From Zasmidium citrigriseum (Eukaryota; Ascomycota; Dothideomycetes; Mycosphaerellales; Mycosphaerellaceae): a stretch of DNA of 64,000 nucleotides. The translations under genes and the position numbers were made by a program. The stretch spans positions 558,001 through 622,000 of the forward strand of contig NHNW01000008.1 of the NCBI GenBank assembly GCA_002786025.1. The letters are read 5' to 3'. The notes under the pieces were generated by a model. The model saw nothing but the letters and a program-made list of their open reading frames with translations. It did not search any database and was not told the DNA's origin. Below are positions 17,315 to 18,640 of the stretch, one piece after another (positions within the stretch are counted from its first letter, which is position 1; each line of letters begins with the position of its first letter).

Positions 17315-18431
17315 TGTCGTTGAAGTGTTGAATCGTTGAATCCCGGATCGATCGAAAGTCGTTGAAGCGGTTTCGAAAGTCTATAAGTACTTTGAAGTCT
17401 TGTAGATGCCTGCTGGTCCGTCTGTCTCCGTGCGACTTTTCTGAGGGGTCAGTAATCAATTCGATGCCTCGCTTGGATAAATTCGAAGCTCGTTGTGTGG
17501 CCCGCTGGCGTTTCGAAACAATCAGTAAAACAGCTGTACAGCGCAATTGCTGCGGATTGGAGAAACTCGCTCCGTCAATAAATCCGACCAAAGTTGGACC
17601 CTAATTTCGAGAATGTCGAGGAGGGAGACTAGGATTTGAAGCTGCTTACTAGTTCTTCGACTTCTTCGGACTCTTCGGGTTGAAGATCGTTGGCAGGGCA
17701 GTGCCTGTATCCGTGCCTGTTTCAGTCACATGGAAATGCCGAGACCGAGGATTGGCTGTTTTGAGGGTGTGCATATTTTTGAAGAGTGTTAGGGCAGGCA
17801 TTGCAAGGCGATCTTGCGTGCAGCTTACCGTCTTTGGAGCATGGCAATCAGTTACAAGGCGGCTGAATAACTTCGTCTTCTTTCTTCCCCGGCAGTCAAA
17901 GCTATGGAAGTTGTTGACCGTGAAGGATTTGGAGCGCTTTTTGTTCGTCATTCAGACTATTAATGCCGAAAGGCATCGCACGGTAAAAATCCGTTTCAAG
18001 GCTTCTCGTCGCCGCTGTCTTTCGCTTGTCGCTGATCTAGATGGAAGTCTGCCACCAGCGATGGGCTTGACGGCAATGCCTGTGCAGGCGATGGGAGCTG
18101 AAGAAGGAATGCAAGCTGTCGATGCCCGAAAAAGCATTGGAAAATGCCAGGGGCTCTTGTGTGCATGTTCGAACAATATGTGAGAGCCTGACGAGGCTCA
18201 GCCTTATTTGTGTAGGAAATTTCGACAACACCATGAGCAGGAAGGACGACCAGCAATAGAGTGAGACTCAAAGGAGGTGGTAAAAGAGAGTTGTAAGAGG
18301 TAGCTCGCTGCATGGGAAAGAGTCATGGGAGCTCGGCTCTTCCTCGCTGTCATTGCAGCCGGCCGCACCCGTCTTGAGCTACATAAACGCATAGTATCTG
18401 CTCCCTCTCATCCAATCAGCAATCAAATCCC
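17315..18431. other. Interval without a supported protein gene
   Basis: 1.1 kb upstream of the esterase and of the split tRNA gene. Several overlapping frames exist on both strands (17649-17951 minus, 17680-18183 plus, 17996-18313 minus with a hydrophobic start). None shows a recognised domain or a consistent splice model. Confidence 0.45.
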
Positions 18432-18446
18432 TCTTCATTGGTCTAG

Positions 18447-18499
18447 GTAAACAGCAGCCTGTCCATTGACTCAAAATCATCCACTAACGTCATCAATAG
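18447..18499 (+). other. Intron 1 of tRNA-Asp (spliceosomal-type), in D loop
   Basis: 53 nt inserted between G15 and the following T of the D loop, after CTAG. Donor GTAAAC, branch-like CACTAAC at 18482-18488, acceptor CAATAG. It splits the A box. All three signals match the mRNA introns of neighbouring genes. Confidence 0.8.
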
Positions 18500-18521
18500 T
18501 GGTCATGATTTCCGCTTGTCA

Positions 18522-18537
18522 TAGCAATATCGTCAAG
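18522..18537 (+). other. Intron 2 of tRNA-Asp, canonical 37/38 position
   Basis: 16 nt (TAGCAATATCGTCAAG) between A37 and C38, the standard site for eukaryotic pre-tRNA introns removed by the tRNA endonuclease. No spliceosomal donor or branch site. Confidence 0.75.
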
Positions 18538-18545
18538 CGCGGGAG

Positions 18546-18602
18546 GTAAGCATTCAGCACCCACCATATCAGTTCAGAACAGCAACTAACAGCGCACAAT
18601 AG
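18546..18602 (+). other. Intron 3 of tRNA-Asp (spliceosomal-type), in variable region
   Basis: 57 nt inserted after position 45, following GGAG. Donor GTAAGC, branch-like AACTAAC at 18584-18590, acceptor CAATAG. Both this and intron 1 sit behind AG, a proto-splice-like site, and end in a similar ACTAAC...CAATAG block. Confidence 0.82.
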
Positions 18603-18635
18603 ACCAGGGTTCGATTCCCTGATGGAGAGTCCTTC

Positions 18636-18640
18636 TTTTT
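18636..18640 (+). terminator. Pol III T5 terminator of tRNA-Asp
   Basis: Run of five T, 7 nt downstream of the discriminator base, as expected for RNA polymerase III termination. Confidence 0.7.

Follow-up and report, generated by a model that had tools for sequence, protein, structure and literature searches.

Results

Anatomy of the tRNA-Asp(GUC) locus

Positions 18432-18629 of the window, that is, of the whole 64-kb stretch of DNA analysed here (C127:558001-622000 in an assembly of 44.4 Mb and 148 contigs), hold a gene for tRNA-Asp(GUC) that is split by two mRNA-type inserts as well as by an ordinary 16-nt intron at 37/38. The gene lies on the forward strand in four exon pieces of 15, 22, 8 and 27 nt, which join to 72 nt. 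Exon 1 (18432-18446, tRNA positions 1-15) supplies the 5' strands of the acceptor and D stems including G10, and is followed at 15/16, in the D loop, by a 53-nt mRNA-type intron (18447-18499) of the form GTAAAC...CTAAC...CAATAG with its branch-site motif CTAAC at 18484-18488. Exon 2 (18500-18521, positions 16-37) carries U25 and the GUC anticodon and ends at the canonical intron (18522-18537). Exon 3 (18538-18545, positions 38-45) contributes C38 and the 3' strand of the anticodon stem; it is separated from exon 4 (18603-18629, positions 46-73; T arm, 3' strand of the acceptor stem and G73) by a second mRNA-type intron of 57 nt at 45/46, in the variable loop (18546-18602, GTAAGC...CTAAC...CAATAG, with CTAAC at 18586-18590). 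On re-reading the sequence, these boundaries and the insert lengths of 53, 16 and 57 nt matched exactly those given in the initial annotation, which had also placed the two long inserts correctly away from 37/38. It had further reported CTAAC close to the acceptor; the motif is present in both inserts, but the distance needed correction, as CTAAC ends 11 and 12 nt before the respective intron ends. Canonical introns of eukaryotic nuclear tRNAs lie at 37/38 and are removed by the Sen endonuclease and a ligase. The 16-nt insert fits this description of a single intron at 37/38, whereas the 53- and 57-nt inserts differ from it both in place and in their spliceosomal signals.

ARAGORN calls the spliced 72 nt tRNA-Asp(gtc), the identity given in the initial annotation. 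The raw, unspliced locus gave no ARAGORN call, with one intron allowed or not, and no tRNA was found in the 64-kb window by ARAGORN or by Rfam at the gathering threshold. The cloverleaf had been described as flawless, and the acceptor, anticodon and T stems are indeed paired throughout, but the D stem has three of its four pairs (counting G10-U25) and a U-U mismatch at 13-22. Among the stem pairs there are two G-U wobbles, and the minimum-energy fold of the bare RNA differs from the cloverleaf. The Asp identity elements G10, U25, G34-U35-C36, C38 (which we take to be a further element of the yeast type) and G73 are present in the spliced tRNA and are distributed over all four exons. Passages of PMC9976931 list G34, U35, U25, G73 and the pair G10.U25 as determinants of yeast tRNA-Asp, and m1G37 as an antideterminant; the latter has no counterpart in the spliced tRNA, in which position 37 is A. 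The sequence thereby has the cloverleaf, GUC anticodon and Asp identity of a functional tRNA-Asp, save for U-U 13-22 and A37. The window also encodes an Ndc1 nucleoporin with 75-77% identity to two Zasmidium cellare proteins (75-79% over its five best matches) and 49% to the next named species, which belongs to another genus; this places the fungus in the Mycosphaerellaceae, near Zasmidium.

Signals expected for RNA polymerase III (Pol III) lie around and within the gene. A TATA-like TACATA (18380-18385, forward strand) lies 52 nt upstream of the 5' end, and a CCAATCA motif (18412-18418, forward strand) recurs upstream of several tRNA genes in this genome, as seen by eye and without a count. 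The initial annotation had described the B box as intact and noted a T5 terminator, and both are there: the B box GGTTCGATTCC at 18608-18618, recovered by the B-box pattern search (C127:576608), and T5 at 18636-18640, 6 nt past the gene, both on the forward strand. In the genomic reading TGGTCTAGGTA, the A box retains its first eight positions and the remainder is divided by intron 1. The B box, the terminator and the upstream TATA-like box are as in a type 2 Pol III gene, and all three also occur at uninterrupted tRNA genes.

A single tRNA-Asp 3' end in the genome

For other tRNA-Asp copies we searched the genome with a pattern of the T arm and acceptor strand. This returned the target as the one perfect match and 7 further matches, all with 3 mismatches; a reversed control also gives 7. 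With its own locus as the positive control, the pattern found no second tRNA-Asp 3' end across the 44.4 Mb. The spliced 72-mer used as a DNA query of the genome gave no match and missed its own locus too, and so does not bear on absence. The sequence of the target locus was matched once in the genome, without near-identical copies of the introner type. On the pattern search, and within the limits of the assembly, the target is the sole tRNA-Asp gene.

Census of interrupted tRNA genes

Genes were sought over the genome by B boxes with a T run after them and by the Rfam tRNA model; the B-box patterns find only genes whose T loop is intact and that have a T run close by. Our finder takes out zero to three candidate introns, defined by a GT donor, CTRAY and YAG within 40-125 nt, and rates how well what is left fits a tRNA that may or may not have a 37/38 intron. 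The census is a lower bound: of 1309 candidates for the Rfam tRNA model 63 were scored, and part of the pattern matches, without one B-box match (C138), were taken further. The 36 resolved nuclear genes comprise 33 of 37 finder rows plus L127, L128 and L130; four odd-family rows, L138 and L119 were left out before counting.

Inserts of the GT...CTRAY...YAG kind, for which the initial annotation had proposed a search (as GTRNG...CTRAC...YAG), split 14 of the 36 genes, with 18 introns outside 37/38. Besides tRNA-Asp with its two, these are at least 13 more tRNA genes: Gln(UUG) with three mRNA-type introns, Pro(CGG) with two, and Val(CAC), Val(AAC), Gly(CCC), two Gln(CUG) genes, Leu(CAG), Ser(UGA), Met(CAU), Thr(UGU), Ser(GCU) and Pro(UGG) with one each. 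For Leu(CAG) and Ser(UGA), which fit just as well with a single very long intron at 37/38, the assignment was made by keeping the canonical intron below 60 nt. The 16 tabulated introns lie at 9/10, 15/16, 16/17, 18/19, 21/22, 26/27, 28/29, 45/46, 46/47, 47/48, 50/51 and in the long variable arm, and none at 37/38. Canonical 37/38 introns of 8 to 61 nt occur in 30 of the 36 genes, a high share. Copies without an mRNA-type intron exist for Gly(CCC), Thr(UGU), Ser(GCU) and Pro(UGG); the other interrupted kinds have no intron-free copy among the resolved genes, the genome-wide test having been made for Asp only. Predicted mRNA-type introns in tRNA genes are a genome-wide feature here and not the property of one odd gene.

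After splicing in silico, ARAGORN assigned the correct isotype and anticodon to 14/14 genes. It recognised 0/14 unspliced sequences when introns were disallowed; with one intron allowed, two were correct (Val-CAC and Ser-UGA), one had the correct isotype with a wrong anticodon (Leu), five received a wrong isotype and six were missed. Ordinary tRNA finders can therefore miss essential tRNA genes.

Several loci stand beside this census. L119 (C57:596060-596470), probably a gene for tRNA-Val(UAC), has 49 nt inserted ahead of the anticodon; the insert ends in CTAATAGTCTTATAG and has no GT donor, and the spliceosomal model leaves it unexplained. The B-box loci L049, L063/L081, L066, L069, L070 and L110 gave no resolved tRNA in the finder and may hide more interrupted tRNA genes, of isotypes missing from the census. 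An often tandem tRNA-like family (L072, L121, L077, L064, L065, L033, L076 and L071), with five copies in L072 (C78:194332-195748) and four in L121 (C61:518240-519650), has acceptor, D and T arms, a B box and a T-run terminator (e.g., GCTGATCTGGTCTAATGGTAAGAC...GGTTCGACTCCGGTGGTCAGCA) around a long and highly variable anticodon domain, and more pattern matches have 3' ends that resemble it by eye. L102, L103, L104, L115, L120, L034, L089 and L093, with internal T runs and GTTTCTCTTTTTGC-like pieces between A-box-like and B-box-like sequence, are possibly other Pol III RNAs.

Splice signals and controls

A GT donor and a YAG acceptor bound 18/18 tabulated tRNA introns, a set that excludes L119 and on which the search imposed these ends except in Ser(GCU). 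GTAAGC, GTAAGT and GTTAGT are the most frequent donors in the set of 16 tabulated introns, the acceptors are CAG (11) and TAG (5), and the branch motifs are CTAAC, CTGAC, CTAAT and CTGAT; the Ser(GCU) and Pro(UGG) introns (L127 and L130) also contain CTAAC. The branch A falls 9-15 nt from the 3' end in 16/16; the search required the presence of the motif but not this tight distance, as it allowed far more. The statement that the two long inserts of the target are as long as local mRNA introns also held, and for the whole set: the 16 introns measure 48-78 nt (median 57), compared with 47-98 nt (median 54.5) for 18 mRNA introns of the window, which are ab initio predictions only. The latter have the same layout, with some branch motifs more distant.

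With strict motifs, 10 loci, the target included, of 133 distinct B-box-like sites were best read as tRNAs with GT...CTRAY...YAG inserts. Three sets of strict decoy motifs gave 0/133 each, and 20 rounds of dinucleotide shuffling gave no intron-bearing solution and five uninterrupted ones at a threshold of 20 (one at 21). A chance origin of the insert pattern was rejected on these counts of 0 versus 10 of 133. When any GT was accepted as donor, 11/149 loci needed mRNA-type introns, a count that omits L127, whose 3' end duplicates that of L009, as well as L045 and L078, where a very long canonical intron scores equally. Seven looser decoys placed 0, 2, 2, 4, 3, 3 and 1 of the 149 loci above threshold, all of them, except L119, already-interrupted genes with a shifted boundary or another isotype (L074). 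As the looser decoys fit the same genes, the exact boundary of single genes is not always unique. In motif-free single deletions of seven one-intron genes, the GT-AG boundary was among the best in 4/7 (with 12, 2, 2 and 4 co-optimal solutions), and in the other three an unconstrained deletion scored slightly higher, with GT-AG within one score unit.

Copy pairs and the origin of the introns

Ser(GCU) offers the cleanest case, one independent of motif and model. Removal of 54 nt from L127 yields L009 letter for letter, in just two exact registers, one of which is a GT...AG insert holding CTAAC. Pro(UGG) likewise exists without (L128) and with (L130) an mRNA-type intron, and the two genes differ, by eye, through compensatory changes in the acceptor and T stems. 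The two Gln(CUG) paralogues both have their intron at 28/29 and show four exon differences, two of which constitute a compensatory swap from G50-C64 to C50-G64, indicating that selection preserved the folded tRNA after duplication, both genes being interrupted.

These pairs bear on the proposal that the interrupted genes are defunct tRNA copies into which introns or intron-like transposons have inserted. A source for such an invasion is at hand, since introner-like elements exist in the Dothideomycetes and are a known origin of new spliceosomal introns in this class, according to passages of PMC4457414, where Zasmidium cellare appears in the species list. Among the 21 tRNA and U6 intron cores, however, 210 pairwise comparisons reached a best score of 11 compared with 14 for shuffled sequences, so that no mobile sequence is shared, unlike in introner-like elements, and a recent introner burst was rejected as an explanation. 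Dead copies would also not be expected to keep stems and B boxes intact, to accumulate compensatory stem changes between paralogues, to show the same arrangement in many tRNA genes or to supply the only Asp 3' end of the genome. The dead-copy option offered in the initial annotation thus fails, and we consider it hardly credible; a set of working tRNA genes accounts better for these observations.

Introns in U6 genes

U6 snRNA, a Pol III gene, had been named as a precedent for spliceosomal introns in a Pol III RNA, and the precedent proved to exist in this very genome: 3/3 U6 genes found carry an mRNA-type intron (L124, C59:490950-491109, minus strand; L125, C72:164877-165035, minus strand; L126, C117:112082 onwards, plus strand). 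The introns are 56-58 nt long, of the form GTAAGT...CTAA[CT]...AG, and occupy the same site in the three genes, between GGCC and CCTGCACTAAGG. The Rfam scores, 30.7 to 44 bits in a search that scored 47 of 2195 candidates, are at or under the 44-bit threshold because the intron splits the match. No insert is present in the 25 full-length 5S rRNA copies (at least 78 bits) among 47 scored of 2288 candidates, a sample that could miss interrupted copies. As all three U6 genes found contain such an intron, the spliceosome of this fungus very probably already handles Pol III transcripts.

The U6 introns also weigh on a second alternative, in which the tRNA inserts are excised by the tRNA endonuclease and a ligase at non-canonical sites and their GT-AG ends are coincidental. 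Non-canonical multiple introns are removed in this way in Cyanidioschyzon and archaea, the route in nucleomorphs being unknown (in the parts of PMC4090602 on such introns), and canonical introns are clearly present in this genome. The constellation of GT, CTRAY at 9-15 nt and YAG would nonetheless be unexpected from such removal, in the tRNA introns as in the U6 introns at their constant site. When the 16 introns were tested at their exact boundaries for the central helix of a bulge-helix-bulge, a mean of 0.94 of its 4 pairs formed, in what is a weak test; with a shift of one allowed, canonical introns scored 2.27, mRNA-type introns 1.94 and shuffled sequences 2.18, which does not discriminate. 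We regard excision by the endonuclease as very improbable and removal by the spliceosome as the preferred reading.

Transcription signals of interrupted genes

Spliceosomal introns normally occur in Pol II transcripts. This usual home favours a third alternative, namely that RNA polymerase II transcribes the interrupted genes into long RNAs that are spliced and yield the tRNA by cleavage. The A box is, in addition, split in several of these genes, which should weaken TFIIIC binding. The remaining signals point to Pol III. The B boxes are intact, a property built into the search; a TATA-like match within 90 nt upstream is present in 8/12 interrupted genes (and absent in 4/12) and in 11/21 of the remaining tRNA genes; and in 10/12 interrupted genes, all but L031 and L099, a T run begins no more than 15 nt past the gene. 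T runs longer than four are absent from the 16 tabulated tRNA introns, and the three U6 introns have no T5 either, so that Pol III could read through them. This is a necessary condition only, as just 1/19 mRNA-type introns of the window contain T5 (a set that wrongly counts the second insert of the target among the window mRNA introns). Given that U6, transcribed by Pol III, has the same introns here, we judge transcription of the interrupted tRNA genes by Pol II to be unlikely, and Pol III to be the polymerase that would read them.

Discussion

The gene anatomy, the splice signals and their recurrence, the empty-site pair, the compensatory changes and the single Asp 3' end are features of the DNA itself. 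On this basis we consider it highly probable that the two long inserts are U2-type spliceosomal introns in a working, Pol III-transcribed tRNA-Asp gene, as in at least 13 more tRNA genes. Among the three options in the initial annotation, the action of the spliceosome on a Pol III precursor is the one best supported by sequence.

We infer a maturation pathway, and the dependence of the cell on it, as follows. Directed by the TATA-like box and the internal boxes, Pol III would transcribe the tRNA-Asp gene as far as the T5 run. In the nucleus, the spliceosome would then excise the D-loop and variable-loop introns, thereby first creating the D arm and the variable loop, and end trimming would come next. 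Finally, the tRNA splicing endonuclease and ligase would excise the 16-nt 37/38 intron. This order is proposed because the D arm and variable loop are absent before removal of the long introns and the endonuclease should therefore lack a proper substrate. The same scheme would apply to at least 13 more tRNA genes, and the spliceosome step also to the U6 genes found.

Comparison with known systems places these genes between several precedents. U6 snRNA genes of some basidiomycete yeasts contain mRNA-type introns. The S. pombe U6 gene has one as well, according to a passage of PMC10484740. The U6 introns of fission yeast and basidiomycete yeasts are alike in being spliceosomal introns in a structural Pol III RNA; here, in contrast, tRNAs are the hosts; a single gene can hold as many as three of these introns, they occur at many different positions, and in most cases a 37/38 intron is present as well. 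Non-canonical eukaryotic tRNA introns are described for nucleomorphs and a red alga in passages of the tRNA-intron review PMC4090602. The introns of Crenarchaeota, Cyanidioschyzon merolae and nucleomorphs resemble the present ones in that several occur per gene and off 37/38, yet in archaea and C. merolae the introns depend on bulge-helix-bulge motifs, and in the Guillardia nucleomorph they span 3-24 nt, whereas the introns described here have the length, and the signals, of mRNA introns (same passages).

In searches of the open-access full-text literature, judged by titles, the beginnings of abstracts and passages, no description of spliceosomal introns in tRNA genes came to light. The letters "spliceosom" are absent from PMC4090602 and from the tRNAscan-SE 2.0 paper (PMC8450103), "tRNA" is absent from the main text of the introner-like element paper PMC4457414, and passages of PMC6461891, PMC12730881, PMC3978253, PMC4022394, PMC13130702 and PMC11782384 hold nothing on spliceosomal introns in tRNA genes. 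This suggests that, while spliceosomal introns in Pol III RNAs are already known, tRNA genes as their hosts are apparently undescribed.

In the textbook view, spliceosomal introns belong to Pol II transcripts and tRNA introns to a protein endonuclease. The genome described here offers a setting in which it can be tested whether a cap or Pol II is needed for spliceosome assembly, in what way introns come to colonise structural RNAs, and what follows when translation depends on splicing. The presence of mRNA-like introns in the sole tRNA-Asp gene found and in at least 13 more tRNA genes suggests that the spliceosome must also mature tRNAs. It is likely that in this lineage the spliceosome is an obligatory tRNA-maturation machine for a large share of the tRNA genes, with two unrelated splicing systems acting in turn on one Pol III transcript, and that both translation and U6 would depend on it.
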